Positions 864-27,289 of a stretch of DNA of 30,710 nucleotides are shown here, piece after piece. Numbering within the stretch: position 1 is the stretch's first letter; every line of letters begins with the position of its first letter. The notes beneath the pieces are model-generated. The model saw only the letters and a list, made by a program, of their open reading frames with translations. It did no database searches and was not told the origin of the DNA. The stretch comes from a virus, in the IMG/VR virus record IMGVR_UViG_3300046336_000185, positions 1-30,710 of that record; one strand, given 5' to 3'. Position numbers and translations under genes: made by a program.

Positions 864-987
864 TATTTTGTCGTAATATTTTCTTGTCCAGCTCTTCCAG
901 CTTTTTAATTAAAGCTTGCTGCTCTGGCGTTTGATCGATCGCCTCATCAGCATCAATACCTTGCAATACCTGTTGCAATGTTTGCAT
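847..987 (-). CDS. Small hypothetical coiled-coil protein (46 aa)
   Basis: This short frame encodes 46 residues, ending in NNARSI. It begins at ATG 987 behind a strong ribosome site (ACAGGAGGT, 6 bases before the ATG) and ends inside the MuF gene in another frame. Residues 20-40 (TPEQQALIKKLEELDKKIL) have a leucine/isoleucine heptad pattern and are rich in Glu/Lys, consistent with a short coiled coil. Its strong ribosome site and its overlap with a MuF start that lacks one suggest that it feeds ribosomes to MuF. It could be a small head or scaffold peptide; no family is recognised. Confidence 0.6.
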   Translation of the reverse strand: MQTLQQVLQGIDADEAIDQTPEQQALIKKLEELDKKILRQNNARSI

Positions 988-1306
988 CACGCGACCTCCT
1001 GTAATTTGCGATTGTAAGCTTCAGCTTTCCTCCGCCTTCTTTTAATGGCGTGGTAATTCCAATCTCCTTGCTTGTATCCACCCCTAGCTTAGCTTTTAAT
1101 TGCTTCGCTGCCTTTTGCTGTTCCATAGTCATGCTAATCCTGCATGTTTTCGTACCACTAATACAACTTTTACCGCAGCTAATGTTCTGAGGTTGGCATT
1201 TATTCTTTTTGCCGCCAGTGCCTTTGTCAGCAGCCTTAGCGAACTCGGCAATAGTAACAATACTTACTATCCTGCGCCCAATCTTTTCATAAATTTCACT
1301 GCTCAT
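953..1306 (-). CDS. Head-region protein with a C-x6-C-x3-C-x6-C motif
   Basis: The 117-aa protein is read from ATG 1306, preceded by GAGG at a good distance; a TTG four codons earlier is the alternative. Its start overlaps the upstream gene's stop by 11 bases. Residues 37-55 hold four cysteines (37, 44, 48, 55) in a motif nearly identical to one in the portal fusion (portal Cys532-550): 19 of 25 flanking positions agree. Such a pattern could bind a metal or form disulfides. Just before it, AEFAKAADKG (20-29) resembles a motif recurring in neighbouring head proteins. The C-terminal half is basic, with helical and then beta-like stretches. I recognise no family; location suggests a virion or head-assembly protein. 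Confidence 0.75.
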   Translation of the reverse strand: MSSEIYEKIGRRIVSIVTIAEFAKAADKGTGGKKNKCQPQNISCGKSCISGTKTCRISMTMEQQKAAKQLKAKLGVDTSKEIGITTPLKEGGGKLKLTIANYRRSRDANIATGIARY

Positions 1307-1805
1307 TTTCAGCCTCAAAATATCCTTGCAAACTAGCTAAAGTTAAGTGATTCTCTATCTCACTCTGAAATTTTGCACTGTCTAAATCTGGGTAAAACTG
1401 AAACACTGCATCTCTTGCAGTATCCAGATCGTCGGCAGTTAGCAATACATCTTTAATATTGTCTAGCCATGCCGAGATCTCCCGATCGCCAGCATTTTTA
1501 ATACTATCAATAATCTGCTCCTGTCCTTCTGGATATTTTGCAAATTTAGCCGCCTCTTTTGGTGCAAGAACATCCTTAGTGTCATCAAAATTAGCGAGCC
1601 GAATCGATGTTTCGGTGTCGCCAATTTTGATCGCCAGTATTTTGCCACCATCACCACCGATCGCTATCACATCACCGTTATCGTCCAGCTTGGCGGCAAA
1701 TATTTGATCCATGCCATCGCCGTATGGTGGATCTTCGCCTTCGGCTGGTGGGTTATTTAAGTAGTCAAGGATGGCTGGATATTTTTCAGGTGCGATGATT
1801 TGCAT
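1296..1805 (-). CDS. Hypothetical acidic head-region protein (169 aa)
   Basis: The 169-aa product is acidic. Residues 1-80 look beta-rich: a PPYGDGMDQIFAAKLDD segment, a Gly-Asp-Gly turn and an LAIKIG strand. The rest is helical. AAKFAKYPEG (85-94) matches a motif present in the next gene upstream (twice), the downstream Cys-motif protein and the protease. ATG 1805 lies 28 bases after the preceding stop without a clear ribosome site. The gene sits between the portal and MuF genes, where Mu has none, so a head-associated or ejected protein is the best guess. No family is recognised. Confidence 0.75.
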   Translation of the reverse strand: MQIIAPEKYPAILDYLNNPPAEGEDPPYGDGMDQIFAAKLDDNGDVIAIGGDGGKILAIKIGDTETSIRLANFDDTKDVLAPKEAAKFAKYPEGQEQIIDSIKNAGDREISAWLDNIKDVLLTADDLDTARDAVFQFYPDLDSAKFQSEIENHLTLASLQGYFEAENEQ

Positions 1806-1833: not shown

Positions 1834-2811
1834 CTATGCCCAGCCCATTCGGGCAAAGACATCCTCGAACTCCTCAAAGGTTTTAAAAAGTTTTTCGTTG
1901 CCTGCTATTTTATTGTAAATCTCCATATGTGTTTCCAGGCTTGCCGCCCCTAACTCCCTTAGAGCATCGGCCTGTTCCTTTGAAAGACTGTCCAGCACCG
2001 CCGTCTGCTCCTTGCTGAATAGCGGTACTGACTCTTTTTCGATAGGTGGATTAAAGTCTTCCATAAACAAGTCGTCCAAATTCAAGTCGTCCAAATTACT
2101 GTAGTCGATCGCTATGTCTGGTAAGTCCAGATCGTCATCTTCATCATCAATTGAATGCCAGCGGCTATCCTTCAAAATTTTATCGCCTTTTTTAGTTCCC
2201 TCCGGAATTTTTGCAAACTGGGCGAATTTACCATCAGGCTTTTTGAGCAGCCCCCGATCGCGGTGGTAGAGGGCATCATGTATCTGTAGTTGTGAGCTGC
2301 CAGCCGTTACCTTAATCGGATTATGGCTAACTGCATGAGTGCTACTGGTGCCCTTGGCGGGAGTCCCCAGCCCCTCAATATCGCCTTGGTCAATTTGCAC
2401 CTGATCGCCTTTGATTAATATTTTACTGGGAGCTTGGGTTATTTTCGCCCCATCCAAATCTATATCAGAATGAGCAATGGTAACTTCATAGCCCCCGCTA
2501 ACGGGCTTTACTGAGTATGGCTTATCTCGCTGAAGGCTTGCTATTAGCTCTCTGCGCTCTTTTCGGGCTTCGGCAGAACTGGCTTTTTCCTCGGCAGCCG
2601 ATCGATCATCATCAGCATTCTCGATCTTATTTTGTAGCAGCTCACCAGTCTTCTGGCTGTGCCACCGACTATTTTTTAAATAGTAATTTTGACCGTTGAT
2701 CGATCGGGTCGAACCCTCCGGCAACTTAGCAAATTCAGCCTTGTGCAAATAATTCACAGCCGCAAAGTTGGCGGCTGTTTCCGTAGTTACTAGGTCAAGG
2801 TTTAGCGCCAT
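1834..2811 (-). CDS. Hypothetical head-region protein with two FAK-x-PEG...SRWHS repeats
   Basis: This is a 325-aa protein. I place the start at ATG 2811 because GGAGG lies 8 bases before it and it overlaps the portal stop (TGATG); the TTG one codon earlier is less likely. Two internal copies of a unit are visible. AEFAKLPEG (25-33) and AQFAKIPEG (197-205) are each followed about 15 residues later by NSRWHS or DSRWHS. Between them lie a charged helical linker and a beta-rich stretch of about 60 residues. A very acidic run (Asp/Glu/Leu, about 225-260) and a helical C-terminus follow. The repeated unit may be a small fold or a docking peptide. Tight coupling to the portal argues for a role in the head. 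No named family is recognised. Confidence 0.8.
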   Translation of the reverse strand: MALNLDLVTTETAANFAAVNYLHKAEFAKLPEGSTRSINGQNYYLKNSRWHSQKTGELLQNKIENADDDRSAAEEKASSAEARKERRELIASLQRDKPYSVKPVSGGYEVTIAHSDIDLDGAKITQAPSKILIKGDQVQIDQGDIEGLGTPAKGTSSTHAVSHNPIKVTAGSSQLQIHDALYHRDRGLLKKPDGKFAQFAKIPEGTKKGDKILKDSRWHSIDDEDDDLDLPDIAIDYSNLDDLNLDDLFMEDFNPPIEKESVPLFSKEQTAVLDSLSKEQADALRELGAASLETHMEIYNKIAGNEKLFKTFEEFEDVFARMGWA

Positions 2812-5558
2812 CAATACTTACCTCCTTTAATTATTTCGGCAATCTGACTATAAAGCTCTCGCTGTACAGCTCCCTGTTTCTCGCCAGCGGCCACACGTAC
2901 CGCAGCCGCATTCAACGCTTTAGCGATCGGTCCTGAAGCATGTTTGAGATCGTCAAACACCGCCATTGTTTGCGCCGACTGCTGGGCAATATCTTTAGAT
3001 GCTGCCTGGTCGATCACGTTGTTGCCCCGCGCCAGTTCCTTAGCAGCCTGAGATTTAGCCACCAAGCCGAAAATGCGCTTATCCTTACCAAGCTGCGATC
3101 GAATGCCTGCGGCTAAGCTTGCCCGCTCGATCGCGTTGGTTTTGGTTTGGAGAGAGCCACCAAATAGATCGAATTGCTCTACCTGGTGGCTGCTGCTGGC
3201 CTTCACTCCCGCAACCAATTCCGATAATACTTGATCGGTTATTTTTTTTCCTTTCTTTTCAGACAATTCATAGAGGTCGCGCTGCTGCTCTGGCTTCAGT
3301 CCAGCCTCACCAATAATCGCCGCTCTGGCTTCAGAGAGATCGCCGTTTACCACTTTGGTAAATAATCCCGGCTCCAGTTTAGCGATCGCTAGCCCCTTTT
3401 GAGCTATCTGCTCTCTCATGGGAATGCTTTTCTTTTTCAGGTCATCGGCAGTTAAGCCAGTATCCTTGAAAAATTTAGCAGCATCCAAGCCAGTGCCCCG
3501 GCCTTCGGCGATATTTGTTAATGCCCCGATCGCCCGTGCGTGAGCAGCATCAGGTGCATCAATAATTCTAGCTGTCACCTTTTCCGCACCTGCTCGATTA
3601 GCCAGCGCCAACCGATTGTGACCATTAATCACATAGAGCTGTTTATCGCCTGGATCTCGCCAGACTTGCACCACCCCGGCTAGATTTGGGTCATAGGTGC
3701 TAACCCCAGACAGGCTGCCAACTTCGCCGGTTTTGGTATGCTCACCGATTAGCTTGTACTGGAAACGTTTGGGGTCGGCCTTAATATCCTTAGCGTCAAT
3801 TTCACCAACAAACCCCGCGTCCAATCTTGGCTGACTGCTTTTAACCTCTGCCAACTCTTTTTTGAGCTGGGCAATTTTTTCTTGGGCGGCGCTCGAAGCT
3901 TCGATCCTACAGACTTTTTTCCCAGAGATGCACGATCGACCACAGCTATGATTCTGTGACTGACACTTCGGCTTTTTACCAGCCGCTTGAGGTTTTTTTA
4001 CTGTTGCACCACGAAATTCTGCACTTTGAAATTCTGCACTTTCCAGCTTTGCCAGAAGTGCTTCAGCGATCGGCAGCAGTGGATCTGGTTCTGGTTCTGC
4101 CTCAAACTTGGCATTATCCAAAAGTGATCGGGCTTTTTCTGGGGATGGTTGCCCTGGCGTGGCTCCACCTTCGGCACTGCCCCCAAGATTTTTGGTAATG
4201 GCGGAGATCGCCTTGTCTGGCCATGACGGGAACGCGCCAGCAATCAGACCGGCCACTAGCTCGGGCTTCCAGCCGCCTTGCTGGGCACTGGTCACGATTG
4301 AGACCAAGGCATTGACCTGCTCACCGTTTAATTGAGTAAGAGCATCGTCGGCCTCTGGGATTTCATAGTTGTCTCCGTACTTTTCGGCGATCGCATCAGA
4401 TTTCAACTTGATGCCTAGCGCTGAAAGCACCGTATCTGTATCCGCCTCCGCCTTGATATCCTTGCTGTCGAATTGCCTCCACACCTTGGGTATAGCCGCC
4501 CCTGGGTAGTTCCACTCGGTAAGCCAGCGCCCGATCGAGTTGCTGAAGCTTTGGCAGATCACATCAGATAGTTGCTTAGCCATGGCCGTCCCAATGTCTT
4601 GATGGACTTCGGCTTGCGATCGACTGCTGCCGTTATCGGTGGTCATGGTTTGGCCGTTAATGATCTTACTGATAGCGGCATTACAGATGTCCACCATGCC
4701 TTGGTAATCAGAGCCGCCCGATCGGCTTGCTTCGATCAAGCTAATAGTGGTTCCTTCGGATGAGGTTGTCCAGTCATCTTCCCCAAATGCCTGGAGCGCA
4801 TCTTCTAGCGATTCAATCTCCTCCGGTGTCGCCCCTACTTGATAGGTTCCATGGCGGTGAGGCTTAGAGTATTTTTCTAAAAATAATATCCACCACCTCA
4901 TCCCCTGGCGCTTAAAAAATGTTGGCCAATACAGCCAATAAGCCAGCCCCCGGCCATTCGGATCGTCTACCGAATCATCCCCAAGTGTAAACACCCAGTA
5001 TTTATTAGGCAGCAACTCGGCACCGTTGTAATCTCGATTGTTTCGCCAACGAATTTCATTTTCGTAAGTCCATAAGAACCTTTTTCGGTGGCGTGGCAAT
5101 AGACCTGCTAACTCCACCCGATCGCCTTCCCCTGGCTCATACATAGCCTCGGCGATCGAGAATCCCCAAAAGTTACCCCAAGCCATTTTGGAGCAAACAT
5201 CGTCCCATGGGATTTCTGATAGTTGGCGCTTGAGGTCTTTGGCTGCTTCAATGTCGATCGGCTTGTCGCCACCCGGCAACACGATAGTTTCGCGGCTGAT
5301 GATTTGGGCGATGAGTTGTCCCATGCCCGCTTTAACCTGATCGTCTTGCCTTACAGGTTCGTAAAAATCTAGGTTATGCCCGCCCTTATCTCGAAGGATA
5401 GGGTCGGTAGACGGCAGTACATACCTATCTAAATAAGCACCCCAGAAATCAGCGCGTTTAGGGGTTTGCTCTTGCCCCATAATGGCGCGCTGTATGGCCG
5501 GTGGGGTCTGCTGTTTTCTAGTTTTGATCGATCGAGATTGGGTAGATGCTTTGGGCAT
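2811..5558 (-). CDS. Portal protein (DUF935, Mu gp29-like) fused to a Cys motif and a DdrB/ParB-like domain
   Basis: At 915 aa this is nearly twice the usual portal length. Residues about 15-440 match the DUF935 portal family: the YEPVRQDD start, WGNFWGFSIAEAMYE, and GQTMTTDNGSSRSQAEVHQD near the end of the portal fold. Portals form the dodecameric DNA gate at one capsid vertex. A low-complexity linker follows, then four cysteines at 532, 539, 543 and 550, then a ParB-superfamily region (about 575-790) with VINGHNRLALANRAG (643-657) and AIGALTNIAEGRGTGLDAAKFF, which strongly recall the DdrB-like ParB domain of phage and plasmid polyvalent proteins. About 100 helical residues end the protein. 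The open frame is continuous, so this is a true fusion unless sequencing hid a stop. The ParB part may act on DNA during packaging or ejection; that is inference. Confidence 0.88.
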   Translation of the reverse strand: MPKASTQSRSIKTRKQQTPPAIQRAIMGQEQTPKRADFWGAYLDRYVLPSTDPILRDKGGHNLDFYEPVRQDDQVKAGMGQLIAQIISRETIVLPGGDKPIDIEAAKDLKRQLSEIPWDDVCSKMAWGNFWGFSIAEAMYEPGEGDRVELAGLLPRHRKRFLWTYENEIRWRNNRDYNGAELLPNKYWVFTLGDDSVDDPNGRGLAYWLYWPTFFKRQGMRWWILFLEKYSKPHRHGTYQVGATPEEIESLEDALQAFGEDDWTTSSEGTTISLIEASRSGGSDYQGMVDICNAAISKIINGQTMTTDNGSSRSQAEVHQDIGTAMAKQLSDVICQSFSNSIGRWLTEWNYPGAAIPKVWRQFDSKDIKAEADTDTVLSALGIKLKSDAIAEKYGDNYEIPEADDALTQLNGEQVNALVSIVTSAQQGGWKPELVAGLIAGAFPSWPDKAISAITKNLGGSAEGGATPGQPSPEKARSLLDNAKFEAEPEPDPLLPIAEALLAKLESAEFQSAEFRGATVKKPQAAGKKPKCQSQNHSCGRSCISGKKVCRIEASSAAQEKIAQLKKELAEVKSSQPRLDAGFVGEIDAKDIKADPKRFQYKLIGEHTKTGEVGSLSGVSTYDPNLAGVVQVWRDPGDKQLYVINGHNRLALANRAGAEKVTARIIDAPDAAHARAIGALTNIAEGRGTGLDAAKFFKDTGLTADDLKKKSIPMREQIAQKGLAIAKLEPGLFTKVVNGDLSEARAAIIGEAGLKPEQQRDLYELSEKKGKKITDQVLSELVAGVKASSSHQVEQFDLFGGSLQTKTNAIERASLAAGIRSQLGKDKRIFGLVAKSQAAKELARGNNVIDQAASKDIAQQSAQTMAVFDDLKHASGPIAKALNAAAVRVAAGEKQGAVQRELYSQIAEIIKGGKY

Positions 5559-5562
5559 TTAA

Positions 5563-6699
5563 TTAATATCCGGCAATTGGTAACTGTAGCGCCTTAGATC
5601 TGGTGATGTCGCCATAATTGCCGTCTTCGGCAATGAGATCGGCAGGGTTATGGGCGTTCCAGTATTTCTGGAGGGCTAGCACCGTAACCTTTTCAGCACC
5701 CAAATCTTTCTCGAAATGGACTGGATCGTTGCCCGACTTATCCATCTGCCATACCCAGCCAAATTTCTTAAAAATGGCTTTGGCTGTTTCGTAATCATCT
5801 ACATCGATCGCCTGCCCAGCTTCATGGTTGCTAGTGCCCGGTCTGGCGCACGCTCCAATGTCACACATCCCCCGCTTATACCATTCATACAAGCAGATTT
5901 GCTGTGCTGCGGTGCGATAGAGGCTATTGATTTTTAGTCTTTTTCCGGCTTTCCCGAAGTACTCATTTACCACCTGCCAGAAGCTTGGCTCTAAGTCTGC
6001 ACTGATAGCCAGATTTACGGCTTTATCACTAACCTCGATCTTAGGGCAATCAGCAGGTATAGATACCATCCCATAAGTTGCATCAATAAGTGCTTTGTTT
6101 AGCCCCGCGATCGCCGCCGTAGAGCATCCACCTTCATTGATAAATTGCCCCAAAGTTTTGCCAGTATTTAGTGGTGCGCTGCCGAGTATGGCACTAGCAA
6201 TCGCTGTCACCATGCCCATATCCCCAAGCTTTCTGTAAAGTTCTACATCGGCTTTGCTATCAATAAAAAATAGCTCCACGAGAATAGCCGGTGCTTGGGT
6301 GTATTTGAGTACGAACAAATGATCTCCCTGTTTCACCCCTCGCGACTTAAAGCCGAGTCTTGCGATTTGAGATTCTACTCTGGCAGCAATTTCCTTGCCC
6401 TTTGCCCCGATCGCGAAGACTTCAGTGCCCATCGGCTTGTCAGTGGCTTGAAAAGCATTGCAATGCAGACTTACATATAAATCAGCGCCGCCTTGGTTGC
6501 TAGTATTGCAGCGCTGATTCAGGCTATCAGTTACGCTGCTCGCCTTGGTTGGCTTGCACATAATTACTTGATGGCCGCGCAGTAGGAATTCAGCTTTCAG
6601 CTTTTCACCGATCGCCTGCACAGTTTTTTCTTCGGTGATAATACCTTCGGCTCCAGTATCTGGGGATACTCCATGGCCGCAATCGATCGCTATTTTCAT
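5563..6699 (-). CDS. Two-domain endolysin: N-acetylmuramoyl-L-alanine amidase plus M15-type peptidase
   Basis: The start is ATG 6699 (378 aa), since the amidase fold begins at once with MKIAIDCGHG and the previous gene stops 2 bases earlier. Residues 1-185 are Amidase_3: zinc ligands His9, Glu23 or Glu24 and His79 (in SLHCNA), and catalytic Glu142 (in ILVELFFID). This domain cuts the bond between MurNAc and the stem peptide. Residues about 250-335 resemble M15 or VanY-type peptidases, with SNHEAGQAID (290-299) and DPVHFE (His328), which supply the metal ligands and would cut peptide cross-links. The last 40 residues (LQKYWNAHNP...EDGNYG) look like a short peptidoglycan-binding repeat. There is no signal peptide, so release would need a holin. 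It lies between the terminase and portal genes instead of beside the other lysis genes. Confidence 0.9.
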   Translation of the reverse strand: MKIAIDCGHGVSPDTGAEGIITEEKTVQAIGEKLKAEFLLRGHQVIMCKPTKASSVTDSLNQRCNTSNQGGADLYVSLHCNAFQATDKPMGTEVFAIGAKGKEIAARVESQIARLGFKSRGVKQGDHLFVLKYTQAPAILVELFFIDSKADVELYRKLGDMGMVTAIASAILGSAPLNTGKTLGQFINEGGCSTAAIAGLNKALIDATYGMVSIPADCPKIEVSDKAVNLAISADLEPSFWQVVNEYFGKAGKRLKINSLYRTAAQQICLYEWYKRGMCDIGACARPGTSNHEAGQAIDVDDYETAKAIFKKFGWVWQMDKSGNDPVHFEKDLGAEKVTVLALQKYWNAHNPADLIAEDGNYGDITRSKALQLPIAGY

Positions 6700-6701
6700 A
6701 C

Positions 6702-7049
6702 TTAAGCTGCAAATAATTGGATTGGTGGTTTTACTTCGACTCGCATTGTCGCGTATTCGTGCAAGTAGCAATATTCTCGCGTTTTTCGCAGCCATGCTTC
6801 AGCCTGAGAAAACGCTGCATACTCTTGAGCGGTTAGCTGGCTGGCCACACCTGGATCTGTTCGCAGCGTGTTCAGAGTGCTGTCTAGCCCCTGCCAAACT
6901 GCATCGGCTCTCTGCCCGTTGTACTGACTCAGATCGTACATTCCAGCAACTTGCCAAACTCGCTGCATTGGCTGAGAGTAAAATCCAAAATCAAGGACTT
7001 TCGACCATTCGCCCTTACCCGACTCGATCTCTAAATAAGCCCGCCCCAT
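6702..7049 (-). CDS. Hypothetical phage protein (115 aa)
   Basis: The 115-aa product has no recognised domain. Its N-terminal half contains VWQVAGMYDLSQYNGQRAD and looks mixed alpha/beta, and the middle is helical (TAQEYAAFSQAEAWLRKTR). ATG 7049 is preceded by ATCAGGGTG, a box also found before several head genes here. Its stop is 2 bases from the endolysin start, so the two are co-translated, and a lysis-related or structural role is possible. A longer plus-strand frame over the same bases has no ribosome site and is taken as a shadow. Confidence 0.7.
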   Translation of the reverse strand: MGRAYLEIESGKGEWSKVLDFGFYSQPMQRVWQVAGMYDLSQYNGQRADAVWQGLDSTLNTLRTDPGVASQLTAQEYAAFSQAEAWLRKTREYCYLHEYATMRVEVKPPIQLFAA

Positions 7050-7098
7050 ACAGCACCCTGATAAATTGCACTGCTTTATTTTAGTTTATCGGTGGCTC

Positions 7099-7127
7099 TT
7101 GACGTTGAGAGATTAATCACGCATAAT
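7099..7127 (+). promoter_or_regulatory. Sigma-70-type promoter
   Basis: TTGACG (7099-7104) and CATAAT (7122-7127) are separated by exactly 17 bases, close to the bacterial consensus. The ATG of a plus-strand gene follows 32 bases after the -10 box. It lies between divergent genes and would drive the isolated plus-strand unit at 7160-7580. Confidence 0.65.
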
Positions 7128-7159
7128 TAGAAGAGTCAGCAGTTAATTAAAGGCAAAAA

Positions 7160-7348
7160 ATGGAATTACTTACAATGCAGGAAAGAAAGCTGAGAGCGTT
7201 GGGTTACGAGTCGTTGGGGTTCATCCGTTCCGACTTTGATCATATTGTGGAGGCCGCAAGTAAAGATTTCGAGTGTTCGCACGGCCGTTTTAAGGCTGTC
7301 TGGGATAGATTCAATTGCTGCAATCTATGGGGTAAGCCCCATAGCTAG
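7160..7348 (+). CDS. Hypothetical protein (62 aa), possible first part of a frameshifted gene
   Basis: This 62-aa frame starts at ATG 7160 with an AAAGG ribosome site and a near-consensus promoter upstream. The N-terminus is helical (MQERKLRALGYESLGF). It ends at TAG 7346 after the codons for WGKPHS. A second open frame, shifted by +1, runs past this stop to 7580 and encodes an HTH-like segment. Both the promoter and the strand (against the surrounding late genes) suggest a regulator or an accessory gene. It may be complete, or it may be the upstream half of one protein. Confidence 0.5.
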   Translation: MELLTMQERKLRALGYESLGFIRSDFDHIVEAASKDFECSHGRFKAVWDRFNCCNLWGKPHS

Positions 7349-7580
7349 CCCCTACCTAGAATTCTGGCAAGAAATAAACAGCCTCATTGATAGTTCCGAG
7401 CTATCAGCCCCTGCTATATCTCGGATGATGGAGGCTGAAACTGATACAAGCCACCGCACGATCGGGAGAAGGCTGGGTGACTGGCGATCGCGAATAATGC
7501 CCCCTGATGGCATTTCGTTTTTAATTGGATTGGTAGATGTTTTGGGATACGAAATTAAATTAGTGAGAAAAGGAAGGTGA
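7340..7580 (+). CDS. HTH-like C-terminal region in the +1 frame (start unclear)
   Basis: In the +1 frame relative to the 62-aa gene, the frame continues through SPYLEFWQEINSL to VDVLGYEIKLVRKGR and stops at 7578-7580. The stretch from APAISRMMEAETDTSHRTI to the end (about 55 residues) has the shape of a small helix-turn-helix regulator, and the final VLGYEIKLVRK resembles the end of many antitoxin or XRE-type proteins. No ATG, GTG or TTG with a ribosome site lies near its beginning; the only start for the whole open frame is a TTG at 7236 without support. It may be made by a +1 slip at CCC-C (near 7338-7342), or the gene may be broken by a one-base error. The start given is approximate. Confidence 0.4.
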
Positions 7581-7598
7581 TTGTAGCCTGTTCTGCGG

Positions 7599-9026
7599 TT
7601 AGTTGTACCCAGAATAATCATTAGCCCTCTGTTTCTGCCTAGTACCCGATGCCTTGGGCTGCCTTAATTCCTCGCCTGCGCCTAAAGCTTTGTAAACTGC
7701 CAGTGTTAGCGCCGAATAATGATCGGCGTGTGTGTAATCACGCCGATCGGCAGTGAACCGCACATTCCCAGCAGCACTCACACACCGCACGATTGATCGC
7801 AAATCCTCTTCGATTTTCTCGATTGCCGCCGCCTCTTTTTGGTCACTGGGCATTGGCGGCAATAATATGATGCCTTTTTGTAGCCCATTCTTGGTTTGAA
7901 GTGCCATCGCTCCTTTGTTGTTTCCGTTAAAAATCACGCCCTCCACCCGGCTAGCACCATACTTCTTAATATATTTCTCGGTAGATTCTTCACCCATGCC
8001 GCCCTGGTCGATTGCCATGCCTTCCGGTGAGTAATTCTTCCATAGTCTTGCAATCTCTTTCTCTTGCTCCTCAAAGTCAGCGCCTTGTAAGCTGACTACT
8101 TCCACCGTCCTCACAAGTCGGCCGTCTCTTTGCAGTACCCAGGCCACCCATCGATCGCCTCGCAGGCCAATATCGTTGCCAATAAAAAATCTGGGTTTGA
8201 GAGTAGCCAGATTGGTAAATTTGGCTTTGCTACCATCAATGCTGCATTCGATCGATCTAGCAGCCCTTATCAATGATTGACCAATCCATTGAGTAACGCC
8301 ATCAATCCATTGCAGCATCATTTCTCGCGCCCATTTGTCGGGATCTGATTGCTCCTTCTCTCGGTCAATATCGTATAGCCTGCCCTCGGCTACTGCCTGC
8401 ACAATATCGACGATCGACTTGCTCCACAGCGGCTTACCCTTGTAGGTTTTTTCGTTGTGAACAAGTTGGTAAAACATGTTTTCCCGATCGCCCCATGGCG
8501 TGCCGGAAACAATCATCTTGAATAGGCCCCGGGTGCAGTGTCTCAGCGCCTCATACATTTCCTTGCCATCGGGATGATGCGCTGCTTCATCCCACCAAAT
8601 ATTAGCCGTATAGCCCCGCGCCGCTCCCGGTGATGCAGCCTGAGCCATGATTCTCTGGCGGCCAATTCTAATCAAATATCGGGTGAAGATCTCTTTCCCG
8701 TCTGCGGTTTTCACCTCCTCCTCAATAATTCCGATTTCTTTCCCCATGGCGAAAAACACTTTGCACCACCGGGCTACCATGTCAATCGCTTCTCTGGCCT
8801 GATCTCTGGTAGCTGAGGCAATCAGCCATGTCTCGGTTTTCCCTTCAGCCTCAGCCATGAATGTATGCCTAGCAACCTTTGCGGCGATACAAAAGGTTTT
8901 TCCATTGCCTCGCGCCCATTGCACGACAATATCGCGGGCATCGTTAGCGATTAGCGCTAGTTGAGATGGCCGGAAAAACTTGAATTTGGGTTTTGGAGTA
9001 TCCAGAGATCGGATGTAGGCGAGCAT
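7599..9026 (-). CDS. terL: Terminase large subunit (packaging ATPase/nuclease)
   Basis: The 475-aa protein is a typical phage TerL related to the Mu gp28 group. It drives DNA into the prohead and cuts the concatemer. The ATPase half has an adapted Walker A at 37-44 (WARGNGKT), Walker B IWWDE (143-147) and a coupling motif SGTP (174-177). The RNase H-fold nuclease half has acidic residues Asp285 (GNDIG), Asp340 (AIDQGG) and Asp435 (HADHYSAL). The N-terminus is short, so ATG 9026 starts close to the fold; this ATG abuts the stop of the upstream gene with no gap. All catalytic residues are present. Packaging type (pac or cos) cannot be told. Confidence 0.93.
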   Translation of the reverse strand: MLAYIRSLDTPKPKFKFFRPSQLALIANDARDIVVQWARGNGKTFCIAAKVARHTFMAEAEGKTETWLIASATRDQAREAIDMVARWCKVFFAMGKEIGIIEEEVKTADGKEIFTRYLIRIGRQRIMAQAASPGAARGYTANIWWDEAAHHPDGKEMYEALRHCTRGLFKMIVSGTPWGDRENMFYQLVHNEKTYKGKPLWSKSIVDIVQAVAEGRLYDIDREKEQSDPDKWAREMMLQWIDGVTQWIGQSLIRAARSIECSIDGSKAKFTNLATLKPRFFIGNDIGLRGDRWVAWVLQRDGRLVRTVEVVSLQGADFEEQEKEIARLWKNYSPEGMAIDQGGMGEESTEKYIKKYGASRVEGVIFNGNNKGAMALQTKNGLQKGIILLPPMPSDQKEAAAIEKIEEDLRSIVRCVSAAGNVRFTADRRDYTHADHYSALTLAVYKALGAGEELRQPKASGTRQKQRANDYSGYN

Positions 9027-9647
9027 CTACAAGTTGTCTATCTCTACCGGCTGAGGCTCAAAGTTTTCATCGTAAGGCAGCACTCCTAGCATTCTTTCCA
9101 TTTCAATCACAAACTCTGGAGTGATTTCGGTTCGTGGCTTGTCTTTCACGCCATATAACTGCTCTTTACGATACGGCAGCTCGATCGCGAACTTAGCGAT
9201 CATCACCTGTGATCGAACCGTATTGCCAGATATCACCGACAAATCACCCATCTGTTTTAATAATTCATGCCGCCACGCCGCTTTTTTTATAGGGTTTGGC
9301 TCATGCTCCAGAGCTGCAATCTCATCGGTGATCGACTGCATCACTTGGTAGCAAGCTACCGCCTGCTGCTCCAAGACTACCGCCATTGTGGACTGGTCGA
9401 TCACCTTAGTATTGAGCTTGCTAAGTAGCACAGCCTGATCTCGATCGCTCAAATACCGCTCGATCTTGCCAATGCACAGCAGCCGCGCCCGATCAATTTT
9501 TTCAGCCTCCACCACTTCAGCATATTCAGCCGCAATCTGAGCCACTATGCTCTCGGTAGCTGTTTTGTGGACAAAGCCATTTAGGGCGAGTTGACGCGCC
9601 CCGATCGATAGCCCTGGCAGTAAATTTTTAGAGATCTCAATATCCAT
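9027..9647 (-). CDS. terS: Probable terminase small subunit
   Basis: The 206-aa, mostly helical protein ends exactly where the large terminase begins, the usual place for the small subunit, which recognises the packaging site. Residues 50-150 contain long amphipathic helices (KIERYLSDRDQAVLLSKLN, VLEQQAVACYQVMQS) that could form the oligomerisation core. The final 40 residues are acidic and proline-rich and may contact TerL. I do not recognise a particular small-terminase family or a clear N-terminal HTH, so the call is mainly from position. ATG 9647 lacks a strong ribosome site. Confidence 0.55.
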   Translation of the reverse strand: MDIEISKNLLPGLSIGARQLALNGFVHKTATESIVAQIAAEYAEVVEAEKIDRARLLCIGKIERYLSDRDQAVLLSKLNTKVIDQSTMAVVLEQQAVACYQVMQSITDEIAALEHEPNPIKKAAWRHELLKQMGDLSVISGNTVRSQVMIAKFAIELPYRKEQLYGVKDKPRTEITPEFVIEMERMLGVLPYDENFEPQPVEIDNL

Positions 9648-9670
9648 GCGGTGATTCTAGCTGCAAAATG

Positions 9671-9716
9671 CCGTGTATTTACGGTTAGCGATTGGGTATC
9701 GGCAAGGATACAAATG
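9671..9716 (+). repeat. 46-bp direct repeat, copy A
   Basis: This copy matches 39 of 46 bases of a second copy at 10856-10901. It begins with a near-palindrome, CCGTGTATTTACGG, goes on with GGTTAG and CGGCAAGG, and ends at ACAAATG. A small plus-strand frame starts 25 bases after it at an AAATGTCC context that the second copy also has downstream. It may be a shared leader, operator or promoter. Confidence 0.75.
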
Positions 9717-9740
9717 ATGTATTCCGCACCGAGAAGCTAA

Positions 9741-9908
9741 ATGTCCTTAACCAACTTGATCGCCGCTAACCAAAACACGCCCTTTGCTACTGCAAGTGTT
9801 TCACTTTGTCAGGCCGCAATTGACACGAATATTAGTGACTGGTCAGAGCTGGTTAGCTTTGCCGAAAATTCGATCGTTGATACCACAATTTTGGAATTGG
9901 GCATTTAG
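9741..9908 (+). CDS. Hypothetical small protein (55 aa)
   Basis: The frame runs from ATG 9741 to TAG 9906-9908 and encodes 55 residues with a balanced composition (MSLTNLIAANQ start, SDWSELVSFAENS middle). It lies 25 bases downstream of repeat copy A, and its start context AAATGTCC matches the start of the membrane protein gene behind copy B. The ribosome site is weak (GAGAAG). Location near the lysis-like genes and the shared leader support a real gene, but there is no family match. A longer plus-strand frame over the same bases is rejected. Confidence 0.4.
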   Translation: MSLTNLIAANQNTPFATASVSLCQAAIDTNISDWSELVSFAENSIVDTTILELGI

Positions 9909-9926
9909 ACCAAAACTTACTTTTTC

Positions 9927-10070
9927 TTACTTTTTGCGCTTCATGCCCAGAGCTTCTGCCCAGCTCTGGGCAATTCCATGGTAAACCACCGCCAAAATAA
10001 TCAGCAATATTACCCCGATCGTGGCTACCCCCGCTAGGATTAAGAACGTAGTAGATGCAATATTTAACAT
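9927..10070 (-). CDS. Small single-span membrane protein (47 aa), possible holin-type or accessory lysis protein
   Basis: Read from ATG 10070, the frame gives 47 residues with one strong membrane segment (about 8-30, rich in Ile, Leu, Val and Ala) and a short tail ending in MKRKK, so the C-terminus should be cytoplasmic. That shape fits small phage membrane proteins next to lysis genes. There is no obvious ribosome site, and its start codon overlaps, on the opposite strand, an ATG of a second membrane protein. It runs in the same direction as the terminase genes downstream. Only one of the two overlapping frames may be used. Confidence 0.4.
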   Translation of the reverse strand: MLNIASTTFLILAGVATIGVILLIILAVVYHGIAQSWAEALGMKRKK

Positions 10071-10290
10071 GTTGACCGGGTATAACTTAAAAGATACTTT
10101 AACTAATTTAGCAGGCGCGATCGCCTTGGTAGGCAGTTGCTTACTTGTTGCAACCGCGTCTGGTTGGATCGATGCCCGGTACGAAAAGACCGGCGAAGGA
10201 ATGCTTGGCCTAGGTGCCGCATTTATAGCTTACGCCTCAGGGAAGCGATCGGATCTGCGTGGTGGGCAAGATGATACCCCGCCTCATTGA
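10069..10290 (+). CDS. Putative two-span membrane protein, holin-like
   Basis: From ATG 10069 the product has 73 residues; a GTG at 10021 in the same frame would add 16. Neither has a clear ribosome site. Two hydrophobic stretches (about 13-34 and 44-58), separated by a charged turn and followed by GKRSD and a hydrophilic tail, form a hairpin typical of small phage holins. It overlaps the 3' end of the minus-strand coiled-coil/membrane gene by 68 bases, so one strand may silence the other. A holin role is inferred from topology and from the neighbours only. Confidence 0.5.
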   Translation: MLTGYNLKDTLTNLAGAIALVGSCLLVATASGWIDARYEKTGEGMLGLGAAFIAYASGKRSDLRGGQDDTPPH

Positions 10291-10657
10291 TGGCAGCCTT
10301 GGCGGGCTTGCCTTGAGCCTGCCACACCCAGCTAGCAATCATTACTGCGATCGCGGATAAGAAGGCGCCCCACGTTTGATTCTTGATGGTGTCCAGGTTA
10401 TTTTGCATCCGTTGCTGACTATCGAATAGATAATCAGTCTTTTTCAGGTAGTCTGGCAAAGCGGCGATCGAAAGATCCGATCGAGTTTTGCTGGCTGCCA
10501 TAAGGGCTAGGCTGACCTTAACCTCTCCCAATTGCTTGCTTAGCTCCTCAATCTGCCGATCGTGGCTGCCCACTTCTTTTACCAGTTGTTCTAACTGGTA
10601 CGTGGCTAAATCCAGCGCTCTCACGATCTGCGCACCTTCGATCGAAGATAGTTCCAT
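10223..10657 (-). CDS. Coiled-coil protein with C-terminal membrane anchor (lysis-associated, XhlA-like layout)
   Basis: The 144-aa product starts at ATG 10657 with AGGG just before it; a GTG one codon earlier is possible. Residues 18-55 (YQLEQLVKEV, RQIEELSKQLGEVKV) form a coiled coil, 80-95 are polar, and 96-113 (WGAFLSAIAVMIASWVWQ) form a membrane span. The tail of 30 residues is basic and His-rich. Proteins with this order of parts, such as XhlA of PBSX-type phages, assist holins. No sequence-level match is claimed. It is transcribed toward the terminase genes. Confidence 0.6.
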   Translation of the reverse strand: MELSSIEGAQIVRALDLATYQLEQLVKEVGSHDRQIEELSKQLGEVKVSLALMAASKTRSDLSIAALPDYLKKTDYLFDSQQRMQNNLDTIKNQTWGAFLSAIAVMIASWVWQAQGKPAKAAINEAGYHLAHHADPIASLRRKL

Positions 10658-10748
10658 CACACCCTGAATCTCGTAATTTCTTTATTAGTATAGCCCGAGC
10701 TGTTTCGAGCTGAGAGATGCACTCTAAAAGAGATTTGCTGCTAACCAT
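10548..10748 (-). CDS. Doubtful small ORF overlapping the coiled-coil gene
   Basis: ATG 10748 opens a 66-aa frame whose first 33 residues look like a natural helix (LLECISQLETARAILIKKL). The second half overlaps the gene at 10223-10657 in another frame and is Arg/Cys-rich with no clear structure. The upstream GGTAAATTTT is a poor ribosome site. It might be a short leader peptide gene coupling translation to the next gene, or chance. Confidence 0.25.
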   Translation of the reverse strand: MVSSKSLLECISQLETARAILIKKLRDSGCDGTIFDRRCADRESAGFSHVPVRTTGKRSGQPRSAD

Positions 10749-10958
10749 AAAATTTACCAAGTTTTATTATTCCAATAGCATAAAACTTTTTGGGATGTGA
10801 CGCTGCTCACCTTAAGCATAAATACAGATTCTCAGATTTTGATTTTTGTCTTTCTCCGTAGATTTACGGTTAGAGATCGGGCACCGGCAAGGTTACAAAT
10901 GGGGAATAAGCGCACCGTTCCAAGCGCTCGCCCTATTAGCCCTTTCAGGTACCCCCAA
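10658..10958. other. Intergenic region with repeat copy B
   Basis: About 300 bases separate the minus-strand membrane gene from the plus-strand membrane gene. Apart from the doubtful ORF ending in it and the repeat copy at 10856-10901, I see only AT-rich sequence (10745-10850) that probably holds divergent promoters. No box pair with consensus spacing was convincing. A plus-strand frame is open throughout but has no supported start before 10959. Confidence 0.5.
10856..10901 (+). repeat. 46-bp direct repeat, copy B
   Basis: This second copy starts with CCGTAGATTTACGG and is followed by the same GGTTAG, CGGCAAGG and ACAAATG elements as copy A. A plus-strand membrane protein gene starts 58 bases later at AAATGTCC. 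The two copies are 1185 bases apart and have the same orientation. Confidence 0.75.
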
Positions 10959-11294
10959 ATGTCCACCACCACCGCCACCCGCACACGCAAGCCCCGCAAC
11001 ACCGCAGCATCTTTGATCGCTGCCGAGCATGTAAAGTACCAAACTCTTGATGAAGTTGTATTGCCTGCTCCAGTCGAGAAACACCCCATGACAGCTTCTC
11101 AGTCACTAAACCCGCTAATCCTTGTCCTGATTGCCTTTGTAGCCGTCACCGTATTGATCAAACTGGCGATCAGCCTTGGCTGCCTACTTATCAAAATTGG
11201 CCAAAAAGTAGCGCCCAAAGTGCGTGTTTTTGTTTCGGCACAATTGGGCGGTGAAATTATCGATTTCCGGGTCTACCAAGCAATTTTTGATTAA
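10959..11294 (+). CDS. Hypothetical single-span membrane protein (111 aa)
   Basis: I choose ATG 10959 (111 aa), with AGG about ten bases upstream and the same AAATGTCC context as the 55-aa gene behind repeat copy A; an in-frame ATG at 10897 is possible. The N-terminal 15 residues are Thr/Arg/Lys-rich. Residues 50-79 form a long hydrophobic segment (LILVLIAFVAVTVLIKLA and on), and the last 30 residues are soluble. It converges on the tail gene at 11291 and overlaps it by 4 bases. Function is unknown; membrane location near lysis genes suggests a role in lysis or superinfection exclusion. Confidence 0.5.
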   Translation: MSTTTATRTRKPRNTAASLIAAEHVKYQTLDEVVLPAPVEKHPMTASQSLNPLILVLIAFVAVTVLIKLAISLGCLLIKIGQKVAPKVRVFVSAQLGGEIIDFRVYQAIFD

Positions 11295-11971
11295 GCAGCC
11301 CGCACCGTCAGCTCTAGAGTAAAATCCCTAGTCTGACCAGCCGCTGTATATTGATCGGCTAACTCTGTAGCCAGCTCGTAGCCATTAATACCCGTGATAT
11401 CCCCGATCGTTGCGGTGCCACCGTAGATCAGCATTGTTGATCGATGCGCGATCGACGTGGTGCCAGTATTTACCAAGGTCACGACCTTGGATTTGATCGC
11501 CTCATTGGCCACTATCGCCGCAGCGGGTAAAAAACTAACGGGTAGCCTGCTGTAGACACCGCCACTAGGCAGCTCTTTATTAATGATTACATTCAGCGGG
11601 TCATCAGCCTTAATACTTTGTTCTAGCATCGTGTGTGAGCCAATACCAATAGATGTTAGATCGAGCGGTGAGCCGCCCAAGGTGGTAGAAAGCTGTACCT
11701 CTGTTGCCGATGCCACCACAGCATAATAATCAGCGCCAACAACTAACGGGCTAGGGAGTGTATCGTCGGTGGCGAACCGAACACGACTACCACTTACTAG
11801 CCCATGGGGGACTGCCGACACGATGAGGCCTAATCCTATATCGGCTGTCACCGTGTTTGCTGGCTGCAAATCACCAGTTAGTAATAATAAGTAGCCATTA
11901 GTAATTCCTTGAGGGAAAAAAGCCTCATTTTTGGCTAATAAAGCGGTGTTACTTGGTATTGCGATCATCAT
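11291..11971 (-). CDS. Tail-tip or fibre-associated protein
   Basis: The 226-aa product starts at ATG 11971; a second ATG follows directly. Residues about 55-115 (HGLVSGSRVRFATDDTLPSP then YYAVVASATEVQLS) match a beta-rich repeat I know from phage tail and fibre proteins, where it forms a small surface domain. The rest is also beta-rich and ends in FTLELTVRAA. The start overlaps the stop of the upstream tail gene (ATGA), and its ribosome site is formed by that gene's glycine codons. It is the last gene of the tail operon, consistent with a distal tail or receptor-binding part. No catalytic motif is visible. Confidence 0.6.
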   Translation of the reverse strand: MMIAIPSNTALLAKNEAFFPQGITNGYLLLLTGDLQPANTVTADIGLGLIVSAVPHGLVSGSRVRFATDDTLPSPLVVGADYYAVVASATEVQLSTTLGGSPLDLTSIGIGSHTMLEQSIKADDPLNVIINKELPSGGVYSRLPVSFLPAAAIVANEAIKSKVVTLVNTGTTSIAHRSTMLIYGGTATIGDITGINGYELATELADQYTAAGQTRDFTLELTVRAA

Positions 11972-13839
11972 GGTACTCCTCCTCCTCCTCCGCCAGCAAC
12001 CAGCGCCGAAGATATTCTTACCGCCCCAATATACCTGGTCGAGGTCTCAGATATGGCGATCGGTGGTTTGATTCGGCTAGATATCCGTACCTCAACAATG
12101 CAATTGATCGCTACCGGAGTAATCGGCGAGGTAATCGGTACTCCTAGTCGATCGATCCTAGCCGCCACGAATCCGAACTCGCACCTCTCCGACTGGTTGC
12201 TGATAGCCAATATTAGGCCATCAGCCTCAAAGTTGCCGTCACCCAAAAACACCCTTGGCAGTGGTGGGCAACCGGCAGCCAACCACTCGATCGGGAGTGG
12301 CATCGTAATTTTGATCGAATCCCTCCGCCTCCACTCCCGATCGGCTATCTGCTGCGCCAAATAATTGGCCTGTCCTACACTTGGGCAAAAGCCCACATCT
12401 ACCACTAAATTGCGCTTATAGATTGGTTCCCACCCGATCGGCCTAACTATCGCCATACCGCTCACTGGCACGGTTTCTAATGGATATTCCGGCAAAGGTT
12501 GGCGATCCTCCTTTACGGGTGCTGGAGTCAAACACCCAGGCTTACCAGTAGCCGGATTGGCCACGCCGCTGTGATCTTCGCTGCCCGCAATCACTGGCTT
12601 TGTTTTTACTATTTCGTACCGCTCAACAATTAAATTTGTATTGTTGGCTTGCCCGACCGGATCTATCACTCCAGCAGGCACCCAAGATCCTTTCCTGCGC
12701 TCTGACTGGATTTCAACCCGGGCTACTATCAAATTACCAGCAGCCCCGAGTTTTGGAAAGACTCGCCCCGCTGGTTGTTCGTAAACGGTAATAGTTTGGT
12801 ATGGGCTATCAATAGGCTGGTTGTCTAATGGCCGATCAATCTGAGCATCAAAAGATAGGTTTGCAGGCAGAAAAGTAGATGCCTGAAATGACAAACTTTG
12901 ATCGTCTACATATTGATAGAAAATCCATTTGACCTCGCCTAAAGTTGGGGAGAGCGTGGTGCTAGCGGGCACTGTGTAAACTTTGTTATACGGCTGCTGT
13001 TCATCCACTTTTGTATATCTTGGTCGCCCCTTGGCATCCAAGGCAGTATTTAGCGGTTGAGGATTGGCAGCGCATGGCACCACGGCTGGCCGTTGGTAGG
13101 CCCCAGCGGCAATCACTTTTTCAGCGGCAAAATCAATGTGATCGATCGATGGCTGCCACTCAATTTGGCTCAGTGTGCGGCTAAAAGTTACCGGCTTTCC
13201 AGCAACATTGCCGGAAACTGATCGGATAGCCTCGGTATTATCAACATGCGCCCATAGCCATTGGCCGCCAAGTAACCGCTGCGCATCGCTAGCAGGGTTT
13301 CGACTACTTAATAGGCCATAGTAATTCCCAGAGCTGTTGCCCAAGGTGATCGCTGACGGCAGCACAGTGCTGCCCCGAAAAGCCTCACCAATTAATCTGC
13401 TGATCAACGAATTCACCGACGTAAATGGTGGCGAGTTTCCACCACTGGCGATCGCCCCGCCTACCTGTATTTCTGCTGGGCGATCTGTGGCCACCGATCC
13501 TAGCAATTGGGTTAGCGTGCCCTCTCCCTCACCAGTCTGCCGATTGTAGGCATACCGATCAATCCGCAGAGCAGGAAAATCGTAGCCATGCAACTTTAAT
13601 TTGACGGCGCTCTTTGCAGGCCGCCACCGATTTGGGCGAGTCCAACTGTCAAACTCATCTTCACTTAACCCCAACTGTTGGGCTTTGACGTTGTAAGTGA
13701 GTTTAAATCTACCAGTCCAGACCAGCAAGCTCCCCATTTCGGCTATCGGCAAGGACAGCGATATTTCATCGACAAATTGCGTGGTATCAAAACCACCAAT
13801 TAATAGCTGGTACGGAGGTATTCTGTAGTCTAAAATCAC
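11968..13839 (-). CDS. Large tail-tip or baseplate-hub-like protein
   Basis: This 623-aa protein uses a GTG start (13839), 2 bases after the previous stop and with no clear ribosome site, so it is probably translated by coupling. It lies third after the tape measure, where siphoviruses encode tail-tip or hub components. The N-terminal 110 residues (DEISLSLPIAEMGSLLVWTGRF) look like a hub-type beta domain. Residues about 480-560 include a second beta domain (IKITMPLPIEWLAAGCPPLPRVFLGD). The protein ends in six glycines followed by Val-Pro. No lysozyme or peptidase motif is apparent. I infer the role from position and size. Confidence 0.6.
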   Translation of the reverse strand: MILDYRIPPYQLLIGGFDTTQFVDEISLSLPIAEMGSLLVWTGRFKLTYNVKAQQLGLSEDEFDSWTRPNRWRPAKSAVKLKLHGYDFPALRIDRYAYNRQTGEGEGTLTQLLGSVATDRPAEIQVGGAIASGGNSPPFTSVNSLISRLIGEAFRGSTVLPSAITLGNSSGNYYGLLSSRNPASDAQRLLGGQWLWAHVDNTEAIRSVSGNVAGKPVTFSRTLSQIEWQPSIDHIDFAAEKVIAAGAYQRPAVVPCAANPQPLNTALDAKGRPRYTKVDEQQPYNKVYTVPASTTLSPTLGEVKWIFYQYVDDQSLSFQASTFLPANLSFDAQIDRPLDNQPIDSPYQTITVYEQPAGRVFPKLGAAGNLIVARVEIQSERRKGSWVPAGVIDPVGQANNTNLIVERYEIVKTKPVIAGSEDHSGVANPATGKPGCLTPAPVKEDRQPLPEYPLETVPVSGMAIVRPIGWEPIYKRNLVVDVGFCPSVGQANYLAQQIADREWRRRDSIKITMPLPIEWLAAGCPPLPRVFLGDGNFEADGLILAISNQSERCEFGFVAARIDRLGVPITSPITPVAINCIVEVRISSRIKPPIAISETSTRYIGAVRISSALVAGGGGGGVP

Positions 13840-13841
13840 GG

Positions 13842-14081
13842 CTAATTACTGATAATAAATCCGGGCAGTCCAAGCCTCGCTGGCTGATATTGAGGTACTG
13901 ATAGCGGCACTGTATCACTCAAATAGTTACCGCTAATACTGCCGCCATCAGCAACTAATAGCTTACGCTGGCCTGTGGCATTGTCGCGCCCTTGGTATTG
14001 GGCGATCGGCTGTGGCGGTGCTGTTTGAATGCGCTGCTGATATTGGTGGTGCAGTTGTTGTGATCTGATTAAATCTATCAT
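13842..14081 (-). CDS. Small tail-region protein (79 aa)
   Basis: The 79-aa product is Gln-rich at the N-terminus (QQLHHQYQQRIQ) and Gly/Ser/Pro-rich after residue 40. Its ATG overlaps the preceding stop by 4 bases (ATGA), and its stop is 2 bases from the next gene. Tight packing in the tail operon supports a structural or assembly role. No family is recognised. Confidence 0.65.
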   Translation of the reverse strand: MIDLIRSQQLHHQYQQRIQTAPPQPIAQYQGRDNATGQRKLLVADGGSISGNYLSDTVPLSVPQYQPARLGLPGFIISN

Positions 14082-24428: not shown

Positions 24429-25319
24429 TTATTTGGCGCAGGCTTCCATCGCAGCCCCGTAGCTCATGCCCGGATTCTTCTTCATGTGGGCTTTGATTTT
24501 TTTGTCCATCATCATGGATGGATCTTCATCGCCGTCCGGCTCCATAGCAAATTCAGCCTCATCAGGCGCTGATTTATCTTTGCCGTAAGGAATAGTTTTT
24601 TTCCCGATCGCGACAGCCAGAAAAGATACCGCTGCATTACTGCCATCTTTAGCAGCCGCAAACGCAGCATTAAATTGATCGCCGGGTACCATAGCCAGCT
24701 TCGTAAAAACATCCACCATGCCAACCTGATCGCTAGGAGCGATCGCGCCTTTGGCCACCAATTCGGCAACGATCGGCACCACTTGAGATTGAGCCTCAAA
24801 CTGAGCCGACTTACGATCCATTTCAGCCTGCCGAGCGTCTAGCTCGTCAATCTTGGCCTGTAGCTCTTCTTCGGTCATACTCGCCACTCTAATAAAGGAT
24901 ACTTGGGCGCTTCCAAATTGCGCCACATTTAATCGATCGAGTGCCACCCTCTCCCCTTTCGGGAAAAAGCCAACATGATCGAATTCGATACCATCACTCG
25001 TATTGGCCGGGTTGCCTGGTAGCCGAATCTTGGCCGATATCTTTGCCCCAAGTGCATTGATGATCGTAGCCGCGCCATCGCTTAGACCATCATAGGCAGC
25101 CGCAACCACACGCCCAGCCTGGTTGATAGCTAATCGAGTGGCGTAGCCGAACGCTTGTTCATTCGTCTGGGGATGGCGCATTACTAATGGTAGCTTTTGG
25201 CCGCTCTGGTTAAAGTGAGCCACCGATCGATTAAGTTCCTCGCGCGAAACTGGCACCGATCGACCAGAATAGTCGGTGTGCTTGCCCGCGTAAAAAATCT
25301 CAACCTCTCTCAACCCCAT
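24429..25319 (-). CDS. Prohead protease/scaffold protein (Mu gpI-like)
   Basis: The 296-aa product has a protease half (about 1-150) with a conserved LPLVMRHPQTNEQAFGY segment and DHVGFFPKG. Its second half is helical, with a coiled coil around 150-180 (TEEELQAKIDELDARQAEMD), a typical scaffold region. In Mu the gpI protease carries the gpZ scaffold at its C-terminus. Residues 255-263 (AEFAMEPDG) resemble a motif in the portal-proximal proteins. The protein ends in MSYGAAMEACAK. It should cleave itself and other head proteins during maturation. A TTAATCAGGGTG box precedes its ATG. Confidence 0.82.
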   Translation of the reverse strand: MGLREVEIFYAGKHTDYSGRSVPVSREELNRSVAHFNQSGQKLPLVMRHPQTNEQAFGYATRLAINQAGRVVAAAYDGLSDGAATIINALGAKISAKIRLPGNPANTSDGIEFDHVGFFPKGERVALDRLNVAQFGSAQVSFIRVASMTEEELQAKIDELDARQAEMDRKSAQFEAQSQVVPIVAELVAKGAIAPSDQVGMVDVFTKLAMVPGDQFNAAFAAAKDGSNAAVSFLAVAIGKKTIPYGKDKSAPDEAEFAMEPDGDEDPSMMMDKKIKAHMKKNPGMSYGAAMEACAK

Positions 25320-27094: not shown

Positions 27095-27289
27095 ATGCAA
27101 GTATTTAGCACTCCGATCGACCACCTCGAAATTCTGATGACCCGCATGGCTGAATTGTCCACAGCTCATCGATCGGCAGCAGCAGCCCGATATATCCAGC
27201 AACGCGAAAAGCTCGGCAGATCTGAGCAGTACGCCGCAATTTCAGGCTCAATCAACAAATTAATTGAAAATCATCGGTTAAAATTATGA
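27095..27289 (+). CDS. Hypothetical early protein (64 aa)
   Basis: I start at ATG 27095, 4 bases after the previous stop; the longer frame from 26987 overlaps the 39-aa gene. The 64-aa product is helical (DHLEILMTRMAELSTAHRSA, then IQQREKLGRSEQ) and might bind DNA or protein. Its stop overlaps the ERF start (ATGA), so it is coupled to recombination. No ribosome site of its own is seen. No family recognised. Confidence 0.55.
   Translation: MQVFSTPIDHLEILMTRMAELSTAHRSAAAARYIQQREKLGRSEQYAAISGSINKLIENHRLKL

Follow-up and report, generated by a model that had tools for sequence, protein, structure and literature searches.

A Mu-type portal protein with a ParB-fold module behind a four-cysteine linker: a possible portal-borne cargo ejected with viral DNA

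Polyvalent proteins with DdrB-like ParB domains, such as DdrB of phage P1, have been described (Iyer et al. 2017, PMC5512222), and the same work described fusions of portal proteins with PBECR, 2H, InPase and lysozyme domains and reported polyvalent proteins to be scarce in cyanobacterial phages. The Dar proteins of P1, including DdrB, are co-ejected with the DNA, and DarA is trimmed by the head protease (PMC12810830). MuF polymorphic toxins have also been described (Jamet et al. 2017, PMC5576092). In the virion structure of phage Mu the portal is seen without its C-terminal 124 residues, which according to the authors supports cleavage by protease I (PMC11915804). Portals of the same family contact DNA, as found for JBD30 (PMC11445458). 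For a portal fused to a ParB module, our limited literature search returned nothing relevant.

We analysed a virus record of 30,710 bases (the window; related loci are given by L numbers). Its portal-ParB fusion gene occupies 2811-5558 on the minus strand (stop codon 2811-2813), starts with ATG and encodes 915 aa in 915 codons with no internal stop. The sequence-only reading had placed one continuous 915-codon frame exactly here, leaving its strand unstated. The same fusion is present in the relatives L019/L103 (913 aa) and L003/L004, the latter being a single contig that is split at its ends. The comparison of the window with L019 gave a dN of 0.15 for the portal core and of 0.11-0.12 for the ParB part (e.g. 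0.11 against a dS of 1.8), with dS near or beyond saturation. In the portal core, the portal tail and the ParB part alike, dN was far below dS. Only the linker between them was relaxed (dN 0.44 in the same comparison), and its four cysteines and AKF/AEF motifs were retained in all three phages compared. The ParB part is 82-86% identical between relatives and under strong purifying selection. Since the fusion recurs in these relatives and dN is far below dS, the junction is read in a genuine continuous frame, and the fusion itself is real and selected. Separate translation of the ParB part was rejected, because the linker has neither an ATG nor an obvious ribosome-binding site for an internal start.

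The first half of the protein is a Mu-type portal by both profile and fold. PF06074 (Portal_Mu, formerly DUF935) matched residues 64-395 (4374..5369, minus strand) with E=5.8e-83 over profile positions 2-335 of 336, bearing out the DUF935 marks previously read in this half, and the AF2 model of the portal half was closest to the JBD30 and Mu portals. A C-terminal tail follows at about residues 405-509 (4032..4346, minus strand), the counterpart of the tail that the Mu portal structure lacks. Model confidence was very low at residues 460-492 and 505-554, which fits a flexible tether. The protein ends 98-136 residues past the core in 72 of the 80 Portal_Mu loci. The extension of about 400 residues in the window is therefore exceptional, in agreement with the earlier remark that this portal is unusually long. 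Portal topology also supports the proposed location of the second half inside the capsid.

Residues 572-915 (2814..3845, minus strand) comprise an N-domain with NGHNR and TNIAEGRG boxes, a helical domain of DNA-binding type and C-terminal helices. An AlphaFold model of these residues, built from ten homologues (pLDDT 77), gave 19 matches in the PDB at E<=3.2e-4. All of them were ParB, Noc or KorB, and they spanned about 194-221 columns, corresponding to the N-domain, of the ParB/Srx kind, and the helical DNA-binding domain. The predicted fold of residues ~572-915 is thus clearly that of ParB/Noc/KorB, where an ordinary portal extension had been named as the finding that would overturn the ParB assignment. 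TM-scores were modest (0.5-0.6 at best, target-normalised) and a sequence search of the PDB with the module gave no match, so that the module is best described as a distant ParB relative. In the second half of the fusion, Pfam gave no match and NCBIfam nothing relevant. PHROG matches to ParB were weak, at E=0.0008-0.04 overall and E=0.03 for the window protein, and an hhalign comparison of the module with a bona fide ParB_N protein of L007 was not significant. A portal family, phrog_21, matched residues 582-890 (E=1e-50) at its far C-terminal columns, so reference phage data already include a portal extended in this way, filed under a different portal family.

The INGHNR and AIGALTNIAEGRGTGLDAA strings noticed in the second half by the sequence-only reading are present and almost invariant across relatives. 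In the NGHNR box the G-H-N-R at the GxxR position is invariant, while the ENxxR box reads T-N-I-A-E, with T in place of the canonical E (motif boxes assigned by reading). With this canonical motif altered, nucleotide use by the module is not predictable. PF18763 (DdrB-ParB) had no match to the window protein at E<=1, nor to ten related records, a series in which the positive control matched nowhere either. The DdrB-ParB family was rejected on the missing match in the window protein and on the additional helical DNA-binding domain. Of the earlier proposal, the ParB-like nature of the second half stands, as a ParB/Noc/KorB fold in the model, and the DdrB-ParB assignment is not supported.

Between portal and module lies a four-cysteine linker, CQSQNHSCGRSCISGKKVC (residues 532-550; 3909..3965, minus strand). 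Across the loci searched, 76 distinct ORFs contained its pattern, C-x4-6-CG-x1-3-C-x4-8-C, and there was one further, non-conforming and chance-like match, the only one among about 70 ordinary Portal_Mu loci. No description of such a linker was found in PMC5512222, where the word 'cysteine' is absent from the text, or in our limited literature search. In the nearest portal relatives without the ParB module (L105, 636 aa; L108, 989 aa) the linker is followed by different sequence, and L106 has a shorter portal extension without the linker. Sequences downstream of the linker include Peptidase_C39 behind MuF (L094), an ADP-ribosyltransferase (ART; L095, E=1.9e-9), a zeta toxin (L074, E=5e-24) and ParB_N (L108), and elsewhere domains resembling DnaJ and GNAT, which score below curated cut-offs, and zincin-like HExxHH sequences recognised by eye. 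An InPase lies upstream of the linker in a linker protein of L005. Cargo is thus swapped behind the linker, and the window protein shares with polyvalent and portal-effector proteins the combination of a virion protein, effector-type modules and modular swapping. Weak phmmer matches between the L005 portal piece and many non-portal proteins were rejected as portal homology, since the inspected alignments consisted of the four-cysteine linker alone.

Several linker proteins deserve mention in their own right. One ORF of L074 (2156-4273) contains two linkers: one precedes a DnaJ-like domain, and a later one precedes the zeta toxin (PF06414). In L094, a Leptolyngbyaceae metagenome-assembled genome, the MuF head protein encoded at 10329-11792 itself carries the four-cysteine linker and a C39 peptidase domain. 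Two isolated cyanophages have linkers in hypothetical proteins of the head region: Aphanizomenon phage CL131 (L183), whose virion proteome comprises 23 proteins, in several proteins at about 6700-14100, gp044, gp045, gp047 and gp048 among them, with up to four copies in gp048, and Planktothrix phage PaV-LD (L184) at 9791 and 14013.

A search for the same fusion in other phages, as had been suggested, found the module on Portal_Mu portals of four other contigs (L019, L003/L004, L005 and L094, the last from the Leptolyngbyaceae genome). It was also found on unrelated lambda-type portals (PF05136) in L006, L008, L010, L011, L021 and L028. The fusion therefore recurs across two portal families. 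In podoviruses (e.g. P-SCSP1u and MedDCM-OCT-S31-C1) the module is part of large proteins whose genes lie between those for tail tube and tail fibre, where internal virion proteins are encoded. It was weakly matched in gp43 of Salisaeta icosahedral phage 1, annotated as a structural protein, and occurred in many other large or stand-alone ORFs without a portal. Among its best BFVD matches are 'large polyvalent protein associated' proteins. A tree built from 50 modules requires 5 changes of the three labels, of which at least two, for Portal_Mu, are forced by well-supported (starred) branches. No plasmid relatives of the module were found. In L007, two nearby genes (5848-7023 and 7937-9007) share the N-terminal tag MAGQ-W-KNK-GFMVN; the ParB module is found in one of them and a regular ParB_N (PF02195, E=2.7e-16) in the other.

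An A-K-F motif at residues 483-485 (4104..4112) and two A-E-F motifs at residues 508-510 and 513-515 (4014..4037), all on the minus strand, are candidate head-protease sites; the A-E-F pair lies in a low-confidence, probably disordered linker. The gene for the head maturation protease-scaffold (24429..25319, minus strand) has A-[EKQ]-F in its scaffold half only. In the protease-scaffold proteins of six phages the motif occurred 22 times in the scaffold half, against 2.6 expected from shuffling, and 0 times in the protease half. In the portals of five of these phages it occurred 10 times in the extension, against 0.6 expected, and 0 times in the core. These counts refer to a motif that was noticed in the window first and then counted in five relatives, themselves interrelated. 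One motif falls at the boundary between protease and scaffold in five of the six phages. More widely, [ED]F[ARK] preceded 25 of 69 dereplicated linkers (3.9 expected), and the lambda-type portal versions showed no obvious AEF motif upstream of the linker. The concentration of A-[EKQ]-F in the protease-scaffold gene and in the portal tail makes these motifs candidates for head-protease sites. We infer that the window portal may be cut in its linker and the released piece ejected. In the literature covered, a direct precedent for ejection of a portal-derived fragment was not found.

Related elements are found in the neighbouring genes, all on the minus strand. The next gene (1834..2814, first ATG at 2811) has AEFAKLPEG/AQFAKIPEG repeats, and its homologue in L003 ends in a four-cysteine linker and a zincin-like HExxHH domain. 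A small gene (953..1318) combines AEFA, a second four-cysteine linker and a tail of about 60 aa. A gene of 169 aa (1296..1805) matches a portal C-tail profile (phrog_113), and its counterpart is fused into the portal in L106 and L108. A MuF-like head protein (PF04233; 204..863) is without cargo. Elsewhere in the window, an endolysin (Amidase_3 and VanY; 5563-6795) is encoded between terminase and portal, an uncommon location for a lysis function. By reading only, two ORFs were recognised, one like an ERF-type recombinase (27286-27993, plus strand) and one like a cytosine-C5 DNA methyltransferase (28079-29155, minus strand). On the contigs of L105, L106 and L108 (L196, L198 and L200) the portal is encoded on one strand and the protease/capsid genes on the other; the window has all of them on its minus strand.

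The best explanation, to which we give a probability of roughly 0.5, is that the portal carries the module as cargo, which is probably cut loose within the head and then ejected together with the DNA. The C-terminal tail of a Mu-type portal, facing the capsid interior, would have become a cargo carrier, with the ParB-fold DNA-binding module tethered by a flexible linker containing the head-protease-like A-[EKQ]-F sites and the four-cysteine element. Made as part of the portal, up to 12 copies of the cargo would be placed at the DNA gate of each prohead. The head protease would probably cut the linker and leave a four-Cys-ParB fragment of about 43 kDa inside the head. This fragment may exit with the DNA and, early in infection, have DNA or nucleotides as its target; its likeliest role would be that of a DNA-binding module protecting or handling the incoming genome. 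Ejection or a counter-defence role had already been raised and appears plausible.

The sequence-only reading had pictured a ParB domain on each of twelve portal subunits. If permanent, such a ring could form a DNA-binding collar inside the head that serves to hold or arrange the genome end packaged last, or to measure packaging, and it would fit the inward orientation of portal C-termini, the DNA contacts of same-family portals (JBD30, PMC11445458) and the ParB-type DNA-binding fold of the module. However, close relatives swap the cargo for other sequence, 72 of 80 Portal_Mu relatives have no extension at all, the same module occurs unattached to portals, and in Mu the homologous tail is, by the published account, probably cut off. 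We therefore regard a permanent collar as unlikely. The four-cysteine linker, the candidate head-protease sites and the swappable cargo argue for releasable cargo instead.

The chief functional alternative is nuclease or toxin-like action, in which the delivered module would attack host or rival DNA, as proposed for DdrB-like ParB DNases, rather than protect the genome. Zeta-toxin and ART cargo behind the same linker in other phages are in line with this, as is the proposal that ParB-fold domains of polyvalent proteins are NTP-regulated DNases (PMC5512222). Set against it, the match to PF18763 is absent and the helical DNA-binding domain of partition ParB proteins is kept, which points to DNA binding more than degradation, and an attacking effector seems slightly less probable again than the collar. 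An extension serving assembly only, as a prohead scaffold or recruitment tail that is then cleaved and discarded, would account for the shared motifs of the scaffold protein and for the reported removal of the Mu tail. A two-domain ParB fold so strongly conserved would be unexpected of a discarded scaffold, and effector-type cargo occupies the same position in other phages; this possibility is improbable. A missed frameshift or misassembly joining two genes was rejected as scarcely credible, since the same junction and a conserved frame occur in independent contigs, and nothing was found in its favour.

Portals are usually seen as fixed machinery, and here the tail recurrently bears exchangeable cargo. 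The comparison of relatives suggests a tail that serves as a cargo bay with exchangeable contents, namely proteins entering the next host with the viral DNA, and the reading predicts that the ~43-kDa ParB fragment is released inside the head. More tentatively, a protease-removed portal tail may be a general cargo bay, aquatic and notably cyanobacterial phages using a four-cysteine tag and A-[EKQ]-F sites to load polymorphic effectors (ParB, ART, zeta toxin, peptidases, GNAT, DnaJ) via portal, MuF and neighbouring head genes for ejection with the DNA. If so, the tag and the candidate protease sites would provide a sequence signature for phage-delivered proteins in uncharacterised phages, including cyanobacterial ones.

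The window case is a variant of known systems, one with ParB cargo on the portal in two portal families and a shared four-cysteine linker that we did not find described. Like polyvalent DdrB-like proteins, it shows a ParB-superfamily fold in a virion-associated modular protein and shares other cargo types (InPase, ART, MPTase-like); unlike them, its module has no PF18763 match, includes the ParB helical DNA-binding domain and rides on the portal via the linker. The portal-effector fusions of PMC5512222 likewise join a portal to an effector-type domain, but among its portal fusions we found no ParB cargo, and the linker and candidate cleavage sites are not described in it. MuF polymorphic toxins also combine the N-terminus of a head protein with variable C-terminal cargo, and L094 has a MuF with the same four-cysteine linker; here the carrier is the portal and the ParB module is no known toxin. 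The ParB/Noc/KorB partition and occlusion proteins share the predicted fold over about 215 residues (7nfu, 6sdk, 6t1f, 8qa9), whereas the window module is only ~15% identical, has an altered ENxxR box and is fused to a virion protein, with no ParA seen. Finally, the tail of phage Mu portal gp29 (9khx; PMC11915804) is short (512 aa for the whole protein) and has no cargo domain, but gp29 belongs to the same portal family, and the absence of its tail from the virion structure was attributed to protease I.
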